Assembly (NCBI GenBank): GCA_946478865.1
Contig: CAMLDO010000023.1
Span: 1 to 34,019 of the forward strand
Source: an uncultured Methylobacillus sp.
GTDB lineage: Bacteria; Pseudomonadota; Gammaproteobacteria; Burkholderiales; Methylophilaceae
Length of the DNA: 34,019 nt
Reading direction: 5' to 3'
Numbering within the stretch: position 1 is the stretch's first letter; the number at the start of each line of letters is the position of its first letter. A program made the position numbers and the translations under genes. Positions 1 through 8,866 of this stretch are shown piece after piece. The notes under the pieces were generated by a model. It was given only the letters and a program-made list of their open reading frames with translations, was not told where the DNA came from and did no database searches.

Positions 1-1888
1 TACGGTTGGCGAGCTTGTACGGGTTCCAGCCATCGGAACGGCTCGCCGGCCAGGAAAAGCTAGTGAAGTGCTCGGCCTCGACCAGCGAGAAGCCGATCGC
101 ATGCTTGATCTCGCCGCGCTGCAATTCTTCCGCCGTGATCTGGCCGCCCAGGAACGGCAGGCTGGTCGCCGTCGTGCCGTAGCGGTTCGGGAACACGCCG
201 ATGTTGGACTTGGCGTTCTGCATGCGGCCACCCCAGCAGGCTTGCCACTGGCCGTTCACCTTGCGCATCTGCCAGAACTCCCACACGGTATTGGTGGAGG
301 GCTGGTAGACCGTCATTTCCGCATCGGTGCCCTTGGAAGGCACGGCATAGGAAGGAATCGGCACGGCTTCCCACTGCGGAATGAGGTTCTTGTCGAGGAA
401 GCCCTTCTTCTGGCAATCCCACTCCGTCACCTTCACCGTCGCAGTATTCGCCGCCGCGACATACACCGGGCTGGAATACTCGCCGGTATTGATGTTGACG
501 GTCTTGTAGTACAGATTCTTCTGGCGAACGATGTCCTTGGCGTAATTGGCCGAATTCGGATGCAGCGCAGCATTCGCCGGAATGGGCGTATACCAGAAGC
601 TGTTGGCCGCGAACACCGCGTCGGTCAGCAAGCCGCCGCTGGAAGTCGAAGTAGTCGGCGCAGTCGTCGTCGGGCTCGTCGTGGCGCTCGGTGCGGTCGA
701 CCCCGACATGGAGCTGGTCGGCGCCGTACCTGTCGACGTGGTCGGCGACGTTGTGGTCGTCGGGGACGTCGAAGTCGAGGGCGCCGTCGTGGTTGACGGA
801 GCCGTGGACGTCGTCGGCGTGGACGTGCTCGATGTGGTAGTGGTAGTCGTCGAAGTCGAGGTACTGGGAACCGTGGTCAACGTACCGGCAGTCGAAATCG
901 CGGTCTTGCCATAATTCATCGGCATGAACTGCAGCTTGTCCCACGGAAAACCGTTCAGCACTGCATAGTTCGGCTTGCCTTCGAACAGCGACGGATAAGG
1001 ATCCGCCTGGCCCACCGCAGTATAGGTCACGGGATTCTGCGCACGGATCGCCAAGGCGCCGGACTTGTCCCACACCACGAAACCGTATTTCTGCGCGGCC
1101 TTGGCAATGATCTTGCCGGCACGCGTCATCGGCAGCTTGTCCACGTTCACGCTGGGATCCAGGCGGAAACGCATGCCCTCGGGAATGCGGTTGGCCACCT
1201 TCTGCGGGTTATAACCGTCGGAACGGTTGGCCGGCCAGGAGAAGATGTTGTAATGCTCGGCCTCGACCAGCGAAAAACCGATCGCGTGCTTGATCTCGCC
1301 GCGACGCAATTCCTCGGCCGTCACCTGGCCGCCCAGGAAGGGCAGGCTGGTCGCCGTCGTACCGTAATACTTGTAGTGCACGCCATTGCTTTGGGAGGCA
1401 TTCTGCATGCGACCGCCCCAGCAGGCTTGCCATTGACCGTTGACCTTGCGCGCCTGCCAGAACTCCCACACGGTATCGGTCGACGGTTGGTAAACCGTCA
1501 TTTCCGCATCGGTACCCTTGGAAGGCACGGCATAGGAAGGGATAGGCACCGATTTCCATTGCTCGGCCAGCCCCGGATCGGAGTAGCCCTTCTTCTGGCA
1601 ATCCCACTGCGTCACTTTCACCTTGGCTACGCTGGAACCCACCGTGTAGACCGGGCTGGTGTAGTCACGGGTATTCACGGTGACATTGTTGTAGTACTTC
1701 GCCTTCTGACGCAGGATTTCCTTGGCGAAATTAGCCGAATTGGGGTGCAGCGTGGCATTCGCCGGAATCGGCGTATACCAGAAGCTGGTGGGCGCAAAAA
1801 CGGCATCGGTGACGAGCGCTTCTGCGGACGCGCCCAAGGGAGTAGCCAGCGCCAACGAGGCGGCCAGCCATGTGTGAGACAACTTCAT
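1..1888 (-). CDS. large secreted protein with tandem ~300-residue modules (C-terminus outside window)
   Basis: The frame stays open from ATG 1888 down to base 1, giving 629 codons with no stop, so the gene continues beyond the window. The start has a good Shine-Dalgarno (AAGGAG, 5 nt before ATG). Residues 1-22 are a Sec signal peptide (MKLSHTW..., predicted cut ASA|EA). Module 1 covers about residues 23-330. A Thr/Ser/Pro linker covers about 331-416. Module 2 starts at about 417 and 213 residues of it are visible. Each module begins with a TDAVFA.-SFWYTPIPANA signature and contains WDCQKKG, VPSKGTDAEMTVYQPST, QWQACWGGRMQNA, GTTATSLPFLGG and RGEIKHAIGFSLVEAEH. The two conserved cysteines could form a disulfide. 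I recall similar modules in secreted proteins of other bacteria but know no function. The linker resembles glycosylated linkers of modular secreted enzymes. The leader carries a GEMM-I riboswitch (2181-2270). The product is probably exported or surface-bound; enzyme versus adhesin is undecided. Confidence 0.9.
   Translation of the reverse strand, partial: MKLSHTWLAASLALATPLGASAEALVTDAVFAPTSFWYTPIPANATLHPNSANFAKEILRQKAKYYNNVTVNTRDYTSPVYTVGSSVAKVKVTQWDCQKKGYSDPGLAEQWKSVPIPSYAVPSKGTDAEMTVYQPSTDTVWEFWQARKVNGQWQACWGGRMQNASQSNGVHYKYYGTTATSLPFLGGQVTAEELRRGEIKHAIGFSLVEAEHYNIFSWPANRSDGYNPQKVANRIPEGMRFRLDPSVNVDKLPMTRAGKIIAKAAQKYGFVVWDKSGALAIRAQNPVTYTAVGQADPYPSLFEGKPNYAVLNGFPWDKLQFMPMNYGKTAISTAGTLTTVPSTSTSTTTTTTSSTSTPTTSTAPSTTTAPSTSTSPTTTTSPTTSTGTAPTSSMSGSTAPSATTSPTTTAPTTSTSSGGLLTDAVFAANSFWYTPIPANAALHPNSANYAKDIVRQKNLYYKTVNINTGEYSSPVYVAAANTATVKVTEWDCQKKGFLDKNLIPQWEAVPIPSYAVPSKGTDAEMTVYQPSTNTVWEFWQMRKVNGQWQACWGGRMQNAKSNIGVFPNRYGTTATSLPFLGGQITAEELQRGEIKHAIGFSLVEAEHFTSFSWPASRSDGWNPYKLANR
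640..895 (-). repeat. low-complexity Thr/Ser/Pro linker-coding tract
   Basis: About 85 codons between module 1 and module 2 encode almost only Thr, Ser, Pro, Ala and Gly. On the plus strand this reads as runs of GTC, GTG and GTA-like triplets. Codons are mixed, so it is not a perfect microsatellite, but the triplet periodicity means unequal recombination or slippage would change linker length without breaking frame. Such linkers are often O-glycosylated in secreted multi-domain proteins; that is inference here. Confidence 0.8.
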
Positions 1889-1892
1889 GAAT

Positions 1893-1976
1893 GCTCCTTG
1901 CAATCGTTAACAAAGTTTCACTCACGCCATCGCAGCGAGTTCCAACTTCACCGCCAGGCAGGCGGATTGCAGGAGC
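1893..1976 (-). promoter_or_regulatory. predicted SD-sequestering helix in the leader of the two-module gene
   Basis: In the transcript GCUCCUGCAAU (1976-1966) can pair with AUUGCAAGGAGC (1904-1893), which holds the Shine-Dalgarno. This gives 11 base pairs with one bulged A at 1899. The enclosed loop of 61 nt contains a nested hairpin CCGCC-UGCCU-GGCGG (1965-1951). The same architecture occurs before the paralogous gene at 3638-3719 with compensatory changes. The likely role is the expression platform of the upstream riboswitch, acting on translation. The pairing is seen in sequence; the switching mechanism is inferred. Confidence 0.65.
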
Positions 1977-2180: not shown

Positions 2181-2270
2181 CCATCCCGGCAGTCCCGCTG
2201 TCATAGGATCGCTCCGTTAGACCGGTGACTTTGCGTCCCCACCTTTCGATGGGTTTGCCTTTCACGCTTC
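2181..2270 (-). ncRNA. GEMM-I (cyclic-di-GMP-I) riboswitch aptamer, copy A
   Basis: On the minus strand the segment matches the GEMM-I consensus. GGCAAACC is followed by a hairpin CCCAUC-GAAA-GGUGGG with a GNRA tetraloop, then GACGCAAAG, CCGGUCUAA (tetraloop receptor side), a short variable GGA/UCC stem and AGCGGGACUGCCGG. Aligned to the Vibrio Vc2 aptamer from memory, the ligand-contacting G20 and C92 fall at 2259 and 2189 and are both conserved, which favours c-di-GMP over cGAMP. It lies about 290 nt upstream of the start codon of the two-module secreted protein, on the same strand. Confidence 0.92.
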
Positions 2271-2451: not shown

Positions 2452-2482
2452 AAAAAAGGCGATATCGCCACGATATCGCCTT
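2452..2482 (-). terminator. rho-independent terminator after the single-module gene
   Basis: Read on the minus strand, a GGCGATATCG / CGATATCGCC stem (10 bp, extended by AA/TT) with a 3-nt loop TGG is followed directly by TTTTTT. It begins 18 bases after the stop codon at 2500. This is a textbook intrinsic terminator and separates the two paralogous transcription units. Confidence 0.9.
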
Positions 2483-2499: not shown

Positions 2500-3630
2500 T
2501 TAGCGGAACCGCTTCGACTTGCCCTTGGTCGTGGTCGTCGTGCTAGTCGTCGTAGTCGGACTGGTCGTGGTCGCCGTGCTCGTGCTCGTGCTCGTCGTCG
2601 TAGTGGTAGTGGACGTAGTCGTGGTGGTCGTGGTCGACGCCAGATCCTTGCCGTAATTCAACGGCAGGAACTGCAGCTTGTCCCACGGGAAACCATTCAG
2701 CACTGCATAGTTGGGTTTGCCCTCGAACAGCGCGGGATAGGGATTGGTCTGCCCCAGCGCGGTATAGGACGTGGCATTCTGCGCACGCAGCGCGAGTGCG
2801 CCAGACTTGTCCCAGACCACGAAGCCGTATTTCTGCGCAGCCTTGGCGATAATCTTGCCGGCACGACTCATCGGCAATGCATCGACGTTGACGGTCGGGT
2901 CGAGCCGGAAGCGCTGACCTTCCTGTACGCGGTTGGCAAGGGCATACGGGTTCCATCCATCAGAACGATGGGCCGGCCAGGAGAACTGTGTGTAGTGCTC
3001 CGCCTCGACGATAGAAAAACCGATCGCATGCTTGATTTCGCCGCGCGCCAGTTCTTCCGCGGTAATCTGCCCGCCAAGGAAAGGCAGGCTGGTCGCCGTG
3101 GTACCGTAATATTTGTAGAAAGTCCCGTCGCTGGCAGAGGCATTCTGCAAGCGACCGCCCCAGCAAGCCTGCCACTGGCCGTCAGCTGTCTTGCGGGTCT
3201 GCCAGAATTCCCACACGGTATTGGTGGAAGGCTGGTAGATCGTCATTTCCGCATCCGTACCCTTTGAAGGAAGGGCATAACTGGGAATCGGCACTGCTGC
3301 CCACTGCGTAGCCAGGCTGGCATCGGAAAAGCCCTTTTTCTGGCAATCCCACTCGGTCACCTTCACTGTCGGCACATCCGCACCAACGGTGTAAACCGGG
3401 CTGGTGTATTCGGTCGTATTGATGGTGACGGTTTGATAATAAATGGCTTTCTGCCGCAGGATGTCCTGCACCAGATTGGCCGAATTGGGATGCAGCGCGG
3501 CATTGGCCGGAATCGGCGTATACCAGAAACTGCTGGGGGCGAAGACGGCATCTGTGGTCAGGACTTCGGCAGCGGCCGAGAACGGGACAGCGGACACGAC
3601 GGCATAGAGCCAGACTCGGTTCGATTTCAT
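2500..3630 (-). CDS. secreted single-module protein with Thr-rich tail, paralogue of the 1-1888 gene
   Basis: 376 aa. ATG 3630 is chosen because AGGAG sits 8 nt upstream; an ATG at 3648 would overlap the Shine-Dalgarno. Residues 1-21 are a signal peptide (MKSNRVW..., predicted cut AAA|EV). One module covers about 22-330 and is very similar to both modules of the neighbouring gene (FWYTPIPANAALHPNSAN, WDCQKKG, QWQACWGGRLQNAS, GTTATSLPFLGG, RGEIKHAIGF, AGKIIAKAAQKYGFVVWDK). It is followed by about 37 residues that are almost all Thr/Ser and a basic end, KGKSKRFR. The tail corresponds to the inter-module linker of the neighbour, so this looks like a unit that has lost, or not yet gained, a second module. 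There is no sorting signal or TM anchor. The leader has a GEMM-I riboswitch (3808-3897). Function is unknown; extracellular location is inferred. Confidence 0.92.
   Translation of the reverse strand: MKSNRVWLYAVVSAVPFSAAAEVLTTDAVFAPSSFWYTPIPANAALHPNSANLVQDILRQKAIYYQTVTINTTEYTSPVYTVGADVPTVKVTEWDCQKKGFSDASLATQWAAVPIPSYALPSKGTDAEMTIYQPSTNTVWEFWQTRKTADGQWQACWGGRLQNASASDGTFYKYYGTTATSLPFLGGQITAEELARGEIKHAIGFSIVEAEHYTQFSWPAHRSDGWNPYALANRVQEGQRFRLDPTVNVDALPMSRAGKIIAKAAQKYGFVVWDKSGALALRAQNATSYTALGQTNPYPALFEGKPNYAVLNGFPWDKLQFLPLNYGKDLASTTTTTTTSTTTTTTSTSTSTATTTSPTTTTSTTTTTKGKSKRFR
2527..2637 (-). repeat. Thr/Ser-rich tail-coding tract
   Basis: About 37 codons are nearly all ACN and TCN, interrupted by single Ala and Pro codons. 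It parallels the linker tract at 640-895. Mixed synonymous codons argue for selection on amino-acid composition rather than a recent microsatellite expansion. Confidence 0.75.
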
Positions 3631-3637
3631 GAAAGAA

Positions 3638-3719
3638 ACTCCTAGCAAGAATGAAAGTTAATCTCACGCATGGCAACGGCGCGTTCCAACTTACCGCTAT
3701 GAAGCGGGCTTGCAGGAGC
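3638..3719 (-). promoter_or_regulatory. predicted SD-sequestering helix in the leader of the single-module gene
   Basis: In the transcript GCUCCUGCAAG (3719-3709) can pair with CUUGCUAGGAGU (3649-3638), covering the AGGAG Shine-Dalgarno. This gives 11 pairs, one of them G-U, with one bulged U at 3644. The 59-nt loop contains a nested CCGC-UUCAUA-GCGG hairpin (3707-3694). Compared with copy A, the inner terminal pair is G-C instead of U-A, and the nested hairpin keeps pairing with a changed loop, which supports a real RNA structure. Confidence 0.65.
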
Positions 3720-3807
3720 TGCTCTTGTCCTTGTTCTGAATTGCGGAACGTGAACGGCGGGCAATGACGATCTGGAGGAATAGGCGAGCTGACGAGAGGG
3801 CCTGAGG

Positions 3808-3897
3808 CCCCGCCGGCAGTCCCGCTATCGTAGGAAAAATTCCCTTAGACCGGTGACTTTGCGTCCCCACCTTTCGATGGGTTTGCCTTTATCATTC
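3808..3897 (-). ncRNA. GEMM-I (cyclic-di-GMP-I) riboswitch aptamer, copy B
   Basis: It has the same core as copy A: GGCAAACC, CCCAUC-GAAA-GGUGGG, GACGCAAAG, CCGGUCUAA, a variable stem (here GGAA/UUCC) and AGCGGGACUGCCGG. The G20 and C92 equivalents are at 3887 and 3816. The variable stem differs in sequence from copy A but stays paired, so both copies look functional. It lies about 180 nt upstream of the start of the single-module protein on the same strand. Confidence 0.92.
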
Positions 3898-4023: not shown

Positions 4024-4452
4024 ATGACGATACGCACCGCTGACGCGAGCGACGACATCCGCGCCTGCTACCCTGTAATTCATGAACTGAGGCCGCATCT
4101 GGACGAGGAAACTTTTGTTGCCCAGGTGCTGCGCCAGATGGACCAGCACGGTTATCGGCTGGTATACATCACGGACGATGAGGGACAAATAGTCGCAGCC
4201 GCGGGATTTCGCGTCGCCGAATATCTCGCCTGGGGAAAAACCTTTTATCTGGACGACCTCGTCACCCGTGAATCTGCTCGCGGTCATGGATATGGCGGTG
4301 CGCTGCTCGACTGGCTGCTCGACCATGCACGCGCGCTCGGCTGCGCGCAGTTCCACCTGGATTCCGGTGTTCAACGTCACGACGCGCACCGTTTGTACCT
4401 GGGACGCAAACTCAAGATCACCTCTCACCATTTCGCCAAGGTATTGTCATGA
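4024..4452 (+). CDS. GNAT-family N-acetyltransferase
   Basis: 142 aa, the usual length for a single GNAT domain. The acetyl-CoA pyrophosphate loop appears as RGHGYG (86-91) after the beta-strand FYLDDLVT (74-81), and the C-terminal HRLYLGRKL (122-130) resembles the usual substrate-side end of the fold. The substrate is not predictable. No strong Shine-Dalgarno precedes ATG 4024. Its stop overlaps the ATG of the DinB gene by 4 bases (4449-4452), so it heads a tightly coupled operon with the DinB-like, SDR and YkgJ genes. Confidence 0.88.
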   Translation: MTIRTADASDDIRACYPVIHELRPHLDEETFVAQVLRQMDQHGYRLVYITDDEGQIVAAAGFRVAEYLAWGKTFYLDDLVTRESARGHGYGGALLDWLLDHARALGCAQFHLDSGVQRHDAHRLYLGRKLKITSHHFAKVLS

Positions 4453-4991
4453 TCGAGCGCGACCAGATTGCCCTGCTGGCGACTTACAACGCATGGATGA
4501 ACGGAAAGCTTTACGAAGTTGCGGCACGGCTTCCCGATGACCAGCTGCGTCGCGACCGGGGCGCCTTTTTCGGCTCGATTCTCGGCACGCTCAACCATAT
4601 CGCGGTGGCCGATACTATCTGGCTGCGCCGCTTTTCCACGCTCTCCCTGCAAAGCGTCGTGCTCGCCCAGGCAGCCGAGCTGCCGGTGCCGGCGGCGCTG
4701 GATGCGCCGCTGTTCCCAGAACTGTCCGGCCTCGCCGGTTATCGAAAGAAACTGGATGATCTGATCTGCGCCTGGGCGGATGCGCTGACGCGCGAGGATT
4801 TACTGCGTCAGTTGCAGTACTCCAGCATGAAAGGGATTCCCGCGAGCAAGCGGCTGGGCGATGTGATCCTGCACTTCTTCAATCACCAGACGCACCATCG
4901 CGGACAGGTCACCACTTTGTTATCGCAGGCGGGTCAGGATGTCGGTATCACCGACCTGATCGCGCTGATTCCCGACCAGGAGAACATGTAA
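4449..4991 (+). CDS. DinB-family (four-helix, metal-binding) protein
   Basis: 180 aa. Contains the DinB triad of histidines: H50 in LGTLNHIAVAD and H146/H150 in FNHQTHHRGQ. These bind a divalent metal in this superfamily, which includes thiol-dependent transferases. The early YNAWMN motif is also typical. Despite the family name there is no evidence of a role in DNA damage. ATG overlaps the GNAT stop and its own stop overlaps the next ATG by one base (4991), so it is translationally coupled on both sides. The small-molecule substrate is unknown. Confidence 0.88.
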   Translation: MIERDQIALLATYNAWMNGKLYEVAARLPDDQLRRDRGAFFGSILGTLNHIAVADTIWLRRFSTLSLQSVVLAQAAELPVPAALDAPLFPELSGLAGYRKKLDDLICAWADALTREDLLRQLQYSSMKGIPASKRLGDVILHFFNHQTHHRGQVTTLLSQAGQDVGITDLIALIPDQENM

Positions 4992-5686
4992 TGTCTACCG
5001 TACTGATTACCGGGGCCAATCGCGGCCTCGGCCTTGAATTCACCCGGCAATATGCTGCCGAAGGCTGGCAGGTACTGGCTTGTTGTCGTCATCCGGCAGA
5101 AGCCGATGCCTTGAATGCCATTGCGCATCGTTCGCGGGGCCAAGTCCGCGTCCATGCGCTGGACGTCGCCGAACTGAACACCATCGACGCACTCGCGAAA
5201 ACGCTGCAGGGCACGCCGATCGATCTCATCATCAACAATGCCGGGATTTACCCCGACCGTCACAGCGGCTTCGGTCAGATCGATTACGACGCCTGGATGA
5301 TGGCCTTTCTCGTCAACACCATGGCTCCGCTGAAAGTCGCGGAGGCCTTCGTATCCCATCTGGAACGCGGCCAGGGCAAGCTGATCGCCACCGTCAGCAG
5401 CAAGATGGGTAGCCTCGACGACAACACCAGCGGCGGCTGTTACCTGTACCGCTCCAGCAAGAGCGCGGTCAACATGGTGATGAAGAGCCTGTCGCTCGAC
5501 CTTGCCGCACGCGGAATCCGCGCCGTGATTCTGCATCCCGGCTGGGTCCAGACCGACATGGGCGGGCCGAATGCATTGATTACGCCCGAGCAAAGCGTCA
5601 GCGGCATGCGGCGCGTACTGGAAAACGTCACGAATAAGCAAACCGGTCGTTTCCTCAGCTACGACGGCAGCGAGATTCCCTGGTAA
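4991..5686 (+). CDS. short-chain dehydrogenase/reductase
   Basis: 231 aa, classical SDR length. Rossmann nucleotide-binding motif TGANRGLG (7-14), NNAG (82-85), Asn109, catalytic Ser (SS 136-137) and YRSSK (Y153, K157) are all present, followed by HPGWVQTDMGG, common in the C-factor/sniffer-like SDR subgroup. It likely uses NAD(P)H; the substrate is unknown. It is third in the GNAT-DinB-SDR-YkgJ operon, starting within the stop codon of the preceding gene (TAATG). Confidence 0.9.
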   Translation: MSTVLITGANRGLGLEFTRQYAAEGWQVLACCRHPAEADALNAIAHRSRGQVRVHALDVAELNTIDALAKTLQGTPIDLIINNAGIYPDRHSGFGQIDYDAWMMAFLVNTMAPLKVAEAFVSHLERGQGKLIATVSSKMGSLDDNTSGGCYLYRSSKSAVNMVMKSLSLDLAARGIRAVILHPGWVQTDMGGPNALITPEQSVSGMRRVLENVTNKQTGRFLSYDGSEIPW

Positions 5687-5688
5687 TC

Positions 5689-6003
5689 ATGACGCTGGAA
5701 ACGGATAACCCTTGCCGCACCTGCGGCGCCTGTTGCAACGCATTTCGCGTCTCCTTCCACTGGAGCGAAGCCTCATCTCTCTCGCCCTATCAGGTTCCCG
5801 AAGACATGATCGAGCAGGTGTCGCCGCATATCGCCTGCATGCGCGGGACCCATGCCCGCGAACCCAGGTGCGCAGCGCATATCGGCGCAGTCGGGATCTC
5901 CTCCGGCTGCAGCATTTACGAAAATCGTCCCTCCCCTTGCCGGGAGGTCGCCGTGGGCGACGAAAAATGCCTGCGCGCTCGGGAATTATTCCTATTGTGC
6001 TAG
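5689..6003 (+). CDS. YkgJ-family cysteine cluster protein
   Basis: 104 aa. The N-terminus has CRTCGACC (C9, C12, C15, C16), followed by C50, C61, C74 and the family signature SGCSIYENRPSPCREV (C74, C84) and C94. The family is thought to bind a metal or Fe-S cluster, function unknown. ATG is 3 bases after the SDR stop, without a clear Shine-Dalgarno. After KCLRARE, relatives often continue with a short HGLPPL-like end; here the reading ends ELFLLC, which may be a slightly altered C-terminus. It is the last gene of the operon. Confidence 0.85.
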   Translation: MTLETDNPCRTCGACCNAFRVSFHWSEASSLSPYQVPEDMIEQVSPHIACMRGTHAREPRCAAHIGAVGISSGCSIYENRPSPCREVAVGDEKCLRARELFLLC

Positions 6004-6073
6004 TCAGCGTTCTGCGCCAGACTGCGTCAGCCCCCGGGAACCTTTCGGCACAGGAAGATTCTGACAGCGTGTA

Positions 6074-6101
6074 CATGACGCGGGGTACAGGAAGCGTCAT
6101 G
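6074..6101. promoter_or_regulatory. 8-bp inverted repeat upstream of the beta-propeller gene
   Basis: CATGACGC (6074-6081) and GCGTCATG (6094-6101) form perfect 8-bp arms separated by 12 bp, 38 bp before ATG 6139. It could be an operator or, in RNA, a hairpin in the 5' UTR. The only coding frame crossing it (5712-6158) is a shadow. Confidence 0.45.
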
Positions 6102-6138
6102 GCTATGGCGCACCTTCATAAACTGGAGATCAATTGGC

Positions 6139-7206
6139 ATGAACAGTATCAACAATAAATACGGGCTCACCGCCGCGCTGCTGATGGCGCTGGGAATGAG
6201 TACCGGCGTGACGGCCGCCGATAAAGGCCTCGCGTACGTATCCAACCAGGATGGCGGCGTGACGGTCATCGACCTCGCCACCATGGAGTCCAAGGGCAGC
6301 ATCGATATCGGCGCCAAAGGCCCGCGCGGCATCGGCGTTACCACAGACGGCAAGTATCTGGTCACCGCCAACCGCGACGACGGCAACATTTCCGTGATCG
6401 ACCGCGCCAGCGGCAAGGTCGAGAAGCATATCCCCATCGGCAAGAACCCCGAATTCGTGCGCATCCTCGGCGACAAGGTCTACATTTCCTACGAACCCAG
6501 CTCCAAGGGCGGACCGCCCCCCAAACCCGGGGCCAAGCCGGTAGAGGACGATGATGACGACGAGGAAAAGATTCCCGCCAAGATTTCCGTGGTCGACCTC
6601 AAGCAAGGCAAGGTAGTGCAGGAAATCACCGGCGGCCCGGAAACCGAAGGCATCGAGTTTTCCCCCGATGGCAAGAAGCTCGTCATTACCAACGAGGCTG
6701 ACAACACCATCACCGTACACGACATGAAGTCGGGCAAGCTGCTCAAGACGATCCAGACGCACAAGTACGGCGACCGCCCGCGCGGCATCAAGGTATCGCC
6801 GGATGGCTCGACCTATGTTTCCACACTGGAATACGGCAACAAGATTCTGGTGCTGGACAAGAACTTCAATGTGAAAAAAACGGTGGACACTGCCAAGACG
6901 CCGTACGGCATTTCCTTCGATCCGCAAGGCAAGTACATCTTCGTCGCAGCCAACAAGGACAAGCTGCTGCAGGTGTTCGATGCCAAGACCTTCAAGAAGG
7001 TCAAGGATGTTCCGACCGGCGAACGCTGCTGGCACTTCAGCTTTACGCCTGACAACCAGAACGTGCTGCTCGCCTGCGGCAAGTCGGATGCGGTCTACGT
7101 GATCGACGCCAACAAGCTGGAAGTCACCAAGCAGATCGGCGACAAGCAAATGCCTTGGGGCATCGTGACCTACCCGAAGTCGGCCGGCTCGCTGGATAAA
7201 CCTTAA
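6139..7206 (+). CDS. periplasmic YVTN-family beta-propeller protein
   Basis: 355 aa. GGAG lies 10-13 nt before ATG. Residues 1-26 are a signal peptide (predicted cut VTA|AD). The rest is repeats of the type xxYVSNQDGGVTVIDLAT..., VTANRDDGNISVIDR, VITNEADNTITVHD, VSTLEYGNKILVLD, FVAANKDKLLQVFD and LLACGKSDAVYVID, typical of the seven-bladed YVTN/cytochrome-d1-like propeller. It resembles the propellers associated with PQQ-dependent alcohol oxidation, but no PQQ dehydrogenase is in view. Between two blades (about residues 121-145) lies an insertion of Pro/Gly/Lys followed by an acidic run VEDDDDDEE. The gene has its own upstream region and probably its own promoter. Binding partner and role are unknown. 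Confidence 0.85.
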   Translation: MNSINNKYGLTAALLMALGMSTGVTAADKGLAYVSNQDGGVTVIDLATMESKGSIDIGAKGPRGIGVTTDGKYLVTANRDDGNISVIDRASGKVEKHIPIGKNPEFVRILGDKVYISYEPSSKGGPPPKPGAKPVEDDDDDEEKIPAKISVVDLKQGKVVQEITGGPETEGIEFSPDGKKLVITNEADNTITVHDMKSGKLLKTIQTHKYGDRPRGIKVSPDGSTYVSTLEYGNKILVLDKNFNVKKTVDTAKTPYGISFDPQGKYIFVAANKDKLLQVFDAKTFKKVKDVPTGERCWHFSFTPDNQNVLLACGKSDAVYVIDANKLEVTKQIGDKQMPWGIVTYPKSAGSLDKP

Positions 7207-7232
7207 CCACAGCTCCAACTCGAGCCGAAATA

Positions 7233-7257
7233 TCCGCCCTTCTTCCCGAAGGGCGGA
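7233..7257. terminator. 10-bp hairpin between convergent genes
   Basis: TCCGCCCTTC (7233-7242), loop TTCCC, GAAGGGCGGA (7248-7257). It sits between the stop of the beta-propeller gene and the stop of the convergent DUF6494 gene, so it is well placed to act as a bidirectional terminator. Neither side has a strong T-run, so termination efficiency is uncertain. Confidence 0.5.
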
Positions 7258-7272
7258 ATTCCCGCTCAGCCA

Positions 7273-7479
7273 TTATTCCAGGCTGATTTCCCCATCGAAA
7301 TTGACGCTGAGGTCCAGTGCCTCGATACGCAGCGTCATTTTTGCCGGCAGCTTTTCGTAGCCCTTGAGCTGCCCGTTCGCCATGGCGTCAGCCACGGCTT
7401 TTTCGATTTCGTGCTGCGAATGCACGCCTACCGTCTTGAGGTACTTGCGGATACTCATATTGAAGGTGTCTTCATTCAT
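7273..7479 (-). CDS. DUF6494-family small protein
   Basis: 68 aa starting MNEDTFNMSIRKYLKTVGV. ATG 7479 is chosen because AGGAG lies 8-12 nt upstream; the longer frame to 7512 adds residues encoded by that Shine-Dalgarno. The conserved features are SQHEIEKAV near the middle and LPAKMTLRIEALDLSVNFDGEISLE at the end, matching a small uncharacterised proteobacterial family. It lies 46 bases downstream of the Yip1-like gene on the same strand and is probably co-transcribed with it. No function is known. Confidence 0.8.
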   Translation of the reverse strand: MNEDTFNMSIRKYLKTVGVHSQHEIEKAVADAMANGQLKGYEKLPAKMTLRIEALDLSVNFDGEISLE

Positions 7480-7525
7480 GACGATCTCCTTTCGTTCCCC
7501 CTTGGACGCCATGCTCCCGGATTCG

Positions 7526-8131
7526 TCACCCGAGGAAAGGCATGTGGTATTGCAGATTCTGGACGCTGCTCCAGACCACCAGCGTGCACACCATCAGAAA
7601 GCCCAGCGCCACAGTACCCGCGATCAGCACGGCGCCGAACACCAGGATCGCATGCCCTTGCTCCTTCATGCGGAACACCACCGGTATGCCGTAGTAGAGC
7701 AAGCCCGCCGTCGCCATCATCGCCAGCGAAACGATCACGACATTCACGAGCGCGCTAGGCAGCAGCAGGAAGATCGGCGCCATCCACAATGGCGTGGGCG
7801 CAACTGAGGCAATAATGAAGGAGTCCTTGTAGCTGGGGTGAATTTCGCCCAGTTCGCCCAGTTGCCGGATCAGCATGGCCATGATGGGAACCGCGGCCAG
7901 TTCGACCAGAAACAGGACTATCGCGATGACCAGCAGCTTGGTGGAACCCATGGTGGGGAAGAACTGCCCGCCGTATTTGCCCCCGGCCAGGAACAACATC
8001 AAGGGAGGAATCAGCGAGAACGGGACAACGTGCAGGAAGAAAATGCCGGGAATCGAGGGTTTGCTGTGAATCAGACGGCTCCAGCCTCGGGCCGGGGTAG
8101 CAAACAACGAGAACAACGTGAGCGGATGCAT
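7526..8131 (-). CDS. Yip1-family multi-pass inner membrane protein
   Basis: 201 aa starting MHPLTLFSLFATPARGWSRL. AGGAG lies 7-11 nt before ATG 8131, favouring it over the longer frame to 8167. About five hydrophobic segments are visible (approximately residues 28-50, 65-88, 105-125, 127-150 and 165-190), with a short cytoplasmic N-terminus containing the family-like start F.-P..GW..I. The Yip1 domain in bacteria has no assigned biochemical role. It forms a probable two-gene operon with the DUF6494 gene and is transcribed divergently from the DUF2244-cox operon. Confidence 0.78.
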   Translation of the reverse strand: MHPLTLFSLFATPARGWSRLIHSKPSIPGIFFLHVVPFSLIPPLMLFLAGGKYGGQFFPTMGSTKLLVIAIVLFLVELAAVPIMAMLIRQLGELGEIHPSYKDSFIIASVAPTPLWMAPIFLLLPSALVNVVIVSLAMMATAGLLYYGIPVVFRMKEQGHAILVFGAVLIAGTVALGFLMVCTLVVWSSVQNLQYHMPFLG

Positions 8132-8252
8132 GGTGATCTCCTCTTGTTTTCCAAGAAGCCTGGCCATCCCGCGAGGTAGTGCTGCAGCGCCTGGACCGCC
8201 CCCGCGATCATTCCGGTGCTTCTAACAGTTTGTTTTGCATGCCCAGTTTACT

Positions 8253-8279
8253 ATTTCGCATGGCTTTGTACAGCGAAAT
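8253..8279. promoter_or_regulatory. inverted repeat in the divergent promoter region
   Basis: ATTTCGC (8253-8259) and GCGAAAT (8273-8279) are perfect 7-bp arms with 13 bp between. The element lies in the AT-rich spacer between the Yip1-like gene and the cox-associated operon, just upstream of a candidate promoter (8288-8316). A regulator-binding site is plausible; the regulator is unknown. Confidence 0.4.
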
Positions 8280-8287
8280 GAAAACGG

Positions 8288-8316
8288 TTGTAATGCGTCC
8301 AATATCATACTACTAT
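8288..8316 (+). promoter_or_regulatory. candidate sigma-70 promoter for the DUF2244-cox operon
   Basis: TTGTAA (8288-8293), 17-bp spacer, TACTAT (8311-8316); four of six matches in each box. It lies about 68 bp upstream of ATG 8384 in the most AT-rich part of the spacer. Confidence 0.4.
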
Positions 8317-8383
8317 TGTCAACAATTCAGGTGGTTCACTCAGCCCTAGCTGCTCTCGCATCGCTAGAAAATTGAGGCACACC

Positions 8384-8866
8384 ATGGTCGATGTCAGCGG
8401 TACCACATCATCGGCGCACTACTCCATCACAGCCAGGCCAAATTGTTCTTTGTCCGCGGCAAGCACTCTTTGTGTCTTCTCCATCATCGCATTCATCACG
8501 CTGGCAATCGCCGTAGGCTTCGCGCTCCTCGGCGCATGGCTGGTGCTTCCCTTTGCCGGACTGGAGCTCGTAGTCCTCTGGCTCTGCTTTCATCATGTGT
8601 GGCGCCATGTCCACGACTATGAACGCCTGGTCATCGACCACGACAAGGTCATCGTCGACACGCACGATCCCCGTTCCGACAGTCATATCGAACTCAACAG
8701 CTATTGGGCGCAGGTGGTCATGGAAATGCTGCCGGACGGCGAATGCCGTCGGCTGGCGTTGAGGTCGCACGGCAAGGAGATCGAATTCGGACGGCTGCTC
8801 AACGGCCGTGAGCGGGTGGATCTTGGGTTGAATCTCAAGGCGCGCCTGGGACATGCGCCACCATGA
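8384..8866 (+). CDS. DUF2244 membrane protein, first gene of the cox operon
   Basis: 160 aa starting MVDVSGTT; ATG 8384 has GAGG 6-9 nt upstream and is preferred to the in-frame TTG at 8372. Residues RPNCSLS are followed by two adjacent hydrophobic segments (about 28-75, including GFALLGAWLVLPFAGLEL) and a soluble domain with a late SHGKEIEFGRLLN.-ER motif, the pattern of DUF2244. The family is often found next to cytochrome oxidase genes, as here, where coxB starts 11 bases after its stop. A role in oxidase assembly has been suspected from context only. Confidence 0.85.
   Translation: MVDVSGTTSSAHYSITARPNCSLSAASTLCVFSIIAFITLAIAVGFALLGAWLVLPFAGLELVVLWLCFHHVWRHVHDYERLVIDHDKVIVDTHDPRSDSHIELNSYWAQVVMEMLPDGECRRLALRSHGKEIEFGRLLNGRERVDLGLNLKARLGHAPP

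Follow-up and report, generated by a model that had tools for sequence, protein, structure and literature searches.

Two paralogous genes lie in tandem on the minus strand of a 34,019-nt stretch of an uncultured Methylobacillus contig (the window hereafter), each behind a short RNA element resembling the GEMM-I riboswitch aptamer. This raises the questions of whether both elements are genuine and maintained, how they might act on the genes downstream, and what kind of protein is placed under the control of a second messenger here.

A scan of the window with cmscan against Rfam 15 returned two matches, copies A and B, each spanning positions 1–87 of the RF01051 model (model length 87; cut-off 35 bits) (Table 1). 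The sequence-only reading had proposed a GEMM-I riboswitch with the same core as copy A before the single-module paralog, and the model check on copy B, which lies 5′ of gene B with a score far above the cut-off, bears this out. Of the extent proposed earlier, 3808–3897, the end is exact, but the start runs four bases past the model match. The description of the P3 stem, GGAA/UUCC in copy B and GGA/UCC with another loop in copy A, was also accurate. By sequence and model match, copy B is confirmed as a genuine c-di-GMP-I aptamer, ordinary in kind; the riboswitch class is already well known, and the only new part is its link to this protein family. Like known GEMM-I members of RF01051, the element combines a full-length match and a conserved core with a place 5′ of a gene for a secreted-type protein. 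It differs from them in that the gene family has no Pfam or NCBIfam match, and in a long leader with a Shine–Dalgarno (SD) helix and no terminator-like stem.

Both copies would be expected to bind c-di-GMP. In each of them, G rather than A precedes the C of GGCAAA, the ligand-selecting position, which we take to correspond to G20 of Vc2. In the available portion of PMC9481103, G at the selecting position of GEMM-I is associated with c-di-GMP, and the class is described as including cGAMP-type variants, which leaves some room for an aptamer that senses 3′,3′-cGAMP instead of c-di-GMP. The letter at this position is a selectivity factor and not a hard filter, according to an excerpt of PMC9262584. 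With G and not A present in both copies, cGAMP is a most improbable ligand.

Table 1. Features of the two riboswitch units, in positions of the window.
Feature	Position	Strand	Details
c-di-GMP-I (GEMM-I) aptamer, copy B	3812..3897	-	RF01051, 86.8 bits, E 4.8e-16, full length
Predicted hairpin competing for the 3′ strand of aptamer B	3784..3825	-	GCGGG-CUG-CGG with UCG-CAG-CUCGC; MFE fold
Leader B domain pairing the SD with the anti-SD	3637..3720	-	SD 3643-3639, anti-SD 3714-3718; predicted fold
Gene B	2500..3630	-	376 aa, signal-like N-terminus (by eye), one module and Thr-rich tail
Intrinsic-terminator-like stem between the units	2456..2482	-	12 pairs, then TTTTATTGCT
c-di-GMP-I aptamer, copy A	2185..2269	-	RF01051, 83.0 bits, E 3.9e-15, full length
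Same SD domain in leader A	1893..1976	-	SD 1898-1894; predicted fold
Gene A	2..1888	-	two modules with a Thr/Ser-rich linker between; extends past the window edge

The first module of gene A shares 77% residue identity with gene B. A terminator-like stem stands directly 3′ of the gene B stop codon, in agreement with the earlier proposal of separate units divided by an intrinsic terminator. The terminator scan of both strands gave three sites against 2.5 expected; because this count is near expectation, the stem is trusted for its length and position. The promoter scan gave no promoter evidence for either unit (one site against 1.0 expected). The two aptamers are separated by 1542 nt, one gene, and the terminator-like stem. 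Tandem c-di-GMP-I riboswitches, in the portion of PMC9481103 available, resemble this locus in that several aptamers of the class occur together, but by definition they have at least two within a single leader; here the leaders are separate, 1.5 kb apart, and a gene and a terminator-like stem intervene. Since the aptamers belong to two separate leaders, no pooled response on one mRNA is expected. The parallel dosing of the two proteins that had been suggested earlier is at most a possibility, and the leaders differ in length between aptamer and ATG (181 nt in B, 296 nt in A).

The cores of copies A and B (model columns 11–84) are identical at 65 of 71 positions, and the differences are concentrated in the P3 tip, where 7 of 11 positions are identical, compared with 58 of 60 in the core outside it. 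Fourfold-degenerate sites in the first modules of genes A and B are identical at 76 of 132. Near-neutral sites have drifted and the aptamer cores have been kept; selection has therefore maintained both aptamers, as had been claimed before. The earlier argument for selection from the P3 pairing stands less firmly: the difference between the copies is real, but by itself it is weak evidence, because it alters stem length in a free loop. The comparison also bears on the possibility that the aptamer was merely carried along by duplication of a leader and its gene, with no control left in one or both copies. A and B do look like such duplicates, their downstream leaders have drifted to a length difference of 115 nt, and folding predicts no switch. 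Against this, 58 of 60 core positions agree despite differences at 56 of 132 fourfold sites, and both aptamers retain full model scores, which makes a pair of relics very unlikely.

The reading that we consider probable is that both copies are working c-di-GMP-I riboswitches exerting translational control of a secreted, matrix-acting protein, translation being the most likely mode of control. Copy B would be the aptamer at the 5′ end of the gene B mRNA, and copy A would play the same role for gene A in its separate transcription unit. Bound c-di-GMP would lock the 3′ strand of the aptamer in P2/P3 and block its pairing with the sequence just downstream, and the long leader would relay this change to ribosome access at the SD, which lies some 170 nt (B) or 285 nt (A) further 3′. 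Such control would be translational, as in the Vibrio Vc2 riboswitch, and the regulated protein would be secreted and probably act on or bind cell-surface exopolysaccharide (EPS). Vc2 of Vibrio cholerae is reported as a translational OFF switch that masks the ribosome-binding site far from the aptamer (Inuzuka 2018, as cited in the accessible part of PMC9262584). The present leaders likewise carry a masked ribosome-binding site a long way 3′ of the aptamer, but the gene and the genus are others, and the link between aptamer and ribosome-binding site is here a proposed one.

The two leaders share a predicted structure around the SD. In both, the SD AGGAG is predicted to be paired in a one-bulge helix that closes a three-way junction. 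Of the 11 pairs common to A and B, as read from the structure comparison, nine are unchanged and none is broken; one pair shows a two-sided change (C-G versus A-U) and one a one-sided change (U-G versus C-G). The domain fold has a z-score of −3.24 in leader A, with 1 of 200 shuffles as stable, and −1.47 in leader B, with 19 of 200. Exposure of the SD in leader B was as low in none of 150 spacer shuffles, and in one of 150 with the aptamer forced; in leader A it is within chance (as low in 21/150). An SD helix in the leaders is supported by these predictions. Forcing the aptamer fold costs 8.7 kcal/mol in B, a cost reached by 6 of 150 shuffles, and 3.3 kcal/mol in A, which is at chance (76/150); the cost varies with the ends of the RNA (9.5 and 6.0 kcal/mol for slightly longer RNAs, unshuffled). 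Only in leader B do the modeled folds hint at a structure competing with the aptamer. A second candidate pairing, seen by eye, joins the post-aptamer sequence to a stretch before the anti-SD; each leader has it, but in a register of its own.

A thermodynamic switch at the SD was rejected: in equilibrium folding, the SD is paired in both states of both leaders, its mean unpaired probability going from 0.009 to 0.010 (B) and from 0.102 to 0.101 (A) when the aptamer is forced. This unresponsiveness is one reason to weigh a genuine c-di-GMP-I riboswitch acting on transcription, through Rho-dependent or unrecognized termination within that long leader; the SD helix would then be a side feature. The leaders would offer space for it, with 181 nt (B) and 296 nt (A) between aptamer and ATG, all on the minus strand, and a c-di-GMP-I switch with a long platform carrying two terminators is described in the part of PMC11218506 that could be consulted. 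However, a scan of the coding (minus) strand found no terminator-like stem between either aptamer and the ATG, which speaks against a terminator of this kind between aptamer and gene, and the SD helix is common to both leaders and includes a compensatory change. Transcriptional control is accordingly considered unlikely, though a serious alternative to translational control.

The protein under control belongs to an uncharacterized family. Gene B matches neither Pfam (E values up to 0.1) nor NCBIfam (E values up to 1). A search for homologs retained 1166 among 7983 scored candidates, with 72 loci in genomes; the metagenome homologs P0002–P0009 are 77–94% identical at the protein level. A first structure model of the module, built from 20 sequences, had a pLDDT of 71, and a second (2641–3564, minus strand; 78 sequences) reached 97; neither matched the PDB at E values up to 0.001. 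The predicted module matches five viral proteins, one of them named a minor tail protein, and aligns with a minor tail protein of a Gordonia phage (query TM 0.69, E 4e-19). PHROG 17388, labeled minor tail protein, is matched by P0001 over residues 13–282 (E 1.2e-15). The window protein differs in its N-terminus, which by eye resembles a signal, and in its surroundings, where no tail genes were seen. A homolog in Methylovorus menthalis (L005:542-6382) lies directly after genes of phage tail-fiber type and before a short ORF that by eye seems membrane-bound; the locus is probably a prophage. A likeness by eye to the catalytic motif of MltA, a lytic transglycosylase, found no support in profile comparison (hhalign against 7 MltA-like proteins, probability 0.5%), and none of the 78 homologs has an MltA or 3D match in Pfam at E values up to 0.01.

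The genomic surroundings of relatives offer a clue to function. Around three homologs (L022, L001, and L006), the neighbors comprise Acyl_transf_3, a WecG-type glycosyltransferase, an NTP transferase, a beta-barrel porin, GT4, GT2, an epimerase, and Wzy_C. At least two of nine EPS-type markers were found by tblastn in the surrounding DNA of 30 of the 72 homolog loci, a raw count in which some loci are short; the marker-rich loci are taken, from their gene content, as putative exopolysaccharide clusters. Among the 14 closest loci (L001–L013 and L022), 12 hold at least three EPS markers and two (L005 and L009) none, and an Rfam scan found no aptamer in any of the 14. None of five aptamer-bearing homolog loci in relatives has any of the nine markers. 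A role in EPS is proposed because the gene B product is a stand-alone relative of a gene often found in EPS clusters, and since the aptamer-bearing copies in relatives sit outside such clusters, this role is carried over from other relatives. The aptamer-bearing locus of M. menthalis (L061) has a sugar transferase 0.8 kb away on the opposite strand. More distant relatives in other Methylophilaceae (L121–L131; 24–30% identity in longer ORFs, with open frames of 420–493 aa) have a GT2 match in 9 of 11 loci.

The association of aptamer and gene recurs beyond the window. The survey covered 187 genomes of the family of Methylovorus mays (G048), Methylophilaceae, and gave 25 strong homolog copies in 15 genomes, with 17 weaker matches (23–30% identity) excluded. 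There were 69 RF01051 matches in 39 of the 187 genomes, one of them below the cut-off, under stricter filters with which misses are possible. For 7 of the 25 strong copies, in six genomes, an RF01051 aptamer lies on the same strand at most 1 kb upstream, against 0.006 expected if placement were uniform in the genomes containing both aptamer and homolog. These copies belong to Methylovorus mays, M. menthalis, G217, G201, Methylotenera PB2.3.53, and Methylotenera MGR_bin363, which has two of them. Whole-genome searches of 50 homolog-bearing genomes gave at least one RF01051 match in 18. In PB2.3.53, a 109-aa ORF stands between aptamer and homolog (L078:1501-2954), and the aptamer may control a two-gene unit. 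Among the papers listed in searches on c-di-GMP riboswitches and on methylotroph exopolysaccharide, no title or abstract opening describes this association.

The double arrangement itself is shared by relatives only in part. The nearest genome, Methylobacillus sp. MM3, has one strong copy, in an EPS-type cluster and with no aptamer, so that the refuting condition proposed earlier, relatives keeping only one of the two, is a poor fit to the situation. Two sister paralogs, each behind an aptamer, do occur in a Methylotenera MAG (G018), but on different contigs. Among the 187 genomes, no further neighboring pair was found in which both copies have an aptamer of their own. Tandem duplication of the gene recurs in Methylotenera, where adjacent copies with no aptamer found are present in other members (L002:2956-4970 and L041:3234-5918; genomes G002 and G026).

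The window is close to MM3, with 93% identity in MiaB (90% to G100 and 86% to G083, among the 187 genomes), and the genes to the right of the riboswitch units (4053–8802) are in the same order there. MM3 has an unrelated 331-aa ORF, kinase-like by eye, before that block in place of the riboswitch genes, and G100 has other ORFs at this position, so the two units sit where a conserved block ends and gene content varies. Relationships within the family were taken from a quick maximum-likelihood tree (72 protein rows, SH-aLRT support only); the aptamer label was on 10 rows, a viral-contig row was taken as aptamer-free, and the EPS labels were set by hand, with L026 departing from the two-marker rule. 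The three window modules group with L001 and L022, EPS-cluster copies without aptamer (97, starred). Six aptamer copies of Methylovorus and Methylotenera group with three aptamer-free copies (90), and the PB2.3.53 aptamer copy stands beside the EPS-cluster copy from that same genome (99, starred). On the tree, the aptamer label needs five changes, at least four by starred branches, against a mean of 9.5 after shuffling, and no shuffle of 500 was as low. With at least four changes on the protein tree, aptamer and gene have joined or parted repeatedly; the tree does not separate gains from losses of the aptamer.

As to the source of the leaders, the aptamer nearest to leader B among the loci compared is one in MM3 (L073; 93.75% identity over 80 nt), which precedes an HD-domain protein with DUF3391 that, judging from its domains, is probably an HD-GYP enzyme. 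Capture of the leader from a gene of the HD-DUF3391 type is possible. In RNA alignment past the aptamer, only leader A versus L073 continues, and its roughly 28 nt are too short for covariation analysis. A more speculative reading, less likely than not, is that stand-alone copies of this EPS-cluster family in Methylophilaceae captured c-di-GMP-I leaders several times independently, which would have turned an operon member, possibly a new polysaccharide-acting enzyme also found on phage tails, into a c-di-GMP-gated matrix-remodeling protein. The finding ties an uncharacterized family, with members in EPS-type clusters and kinship to phage minor tail proteins, to c-di-GMP control and thereby gives it a testable function, and the same family with and without the aptamer provides a natural series for the gain or loss of a riboswitch by a gene.

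For the other aptamers of Methylophilaceae, 36 loci were listed by the longest ORF starting within 450 nt downstream, and ten of these ORFs were scanned, nine of which match Pfam families. They encode HD with DUF3391 (two), EAL (one), EAL with HDOD (two, one EAL below the cut-off), MotA, ShlB, a protoglobin-PAS-kinase protein, and a beta-helix protein, and one has no family; HD-DUF3391, EAL, MotA, ShlB, and beta-helix proteins make up a usual c-di-GMP set. c-di-GMP-I aptamers also precede beta-helix proteins at L148:2-1345 (Beta_helix and Pel9A-like matches) and L088:1750-3084 (sequence likeness only), which are perhaps polysaccharide-acting. One genome (G218, L138) carries 13 c-di-GMP-I matches, and the next highest of the 187 genomes has four.
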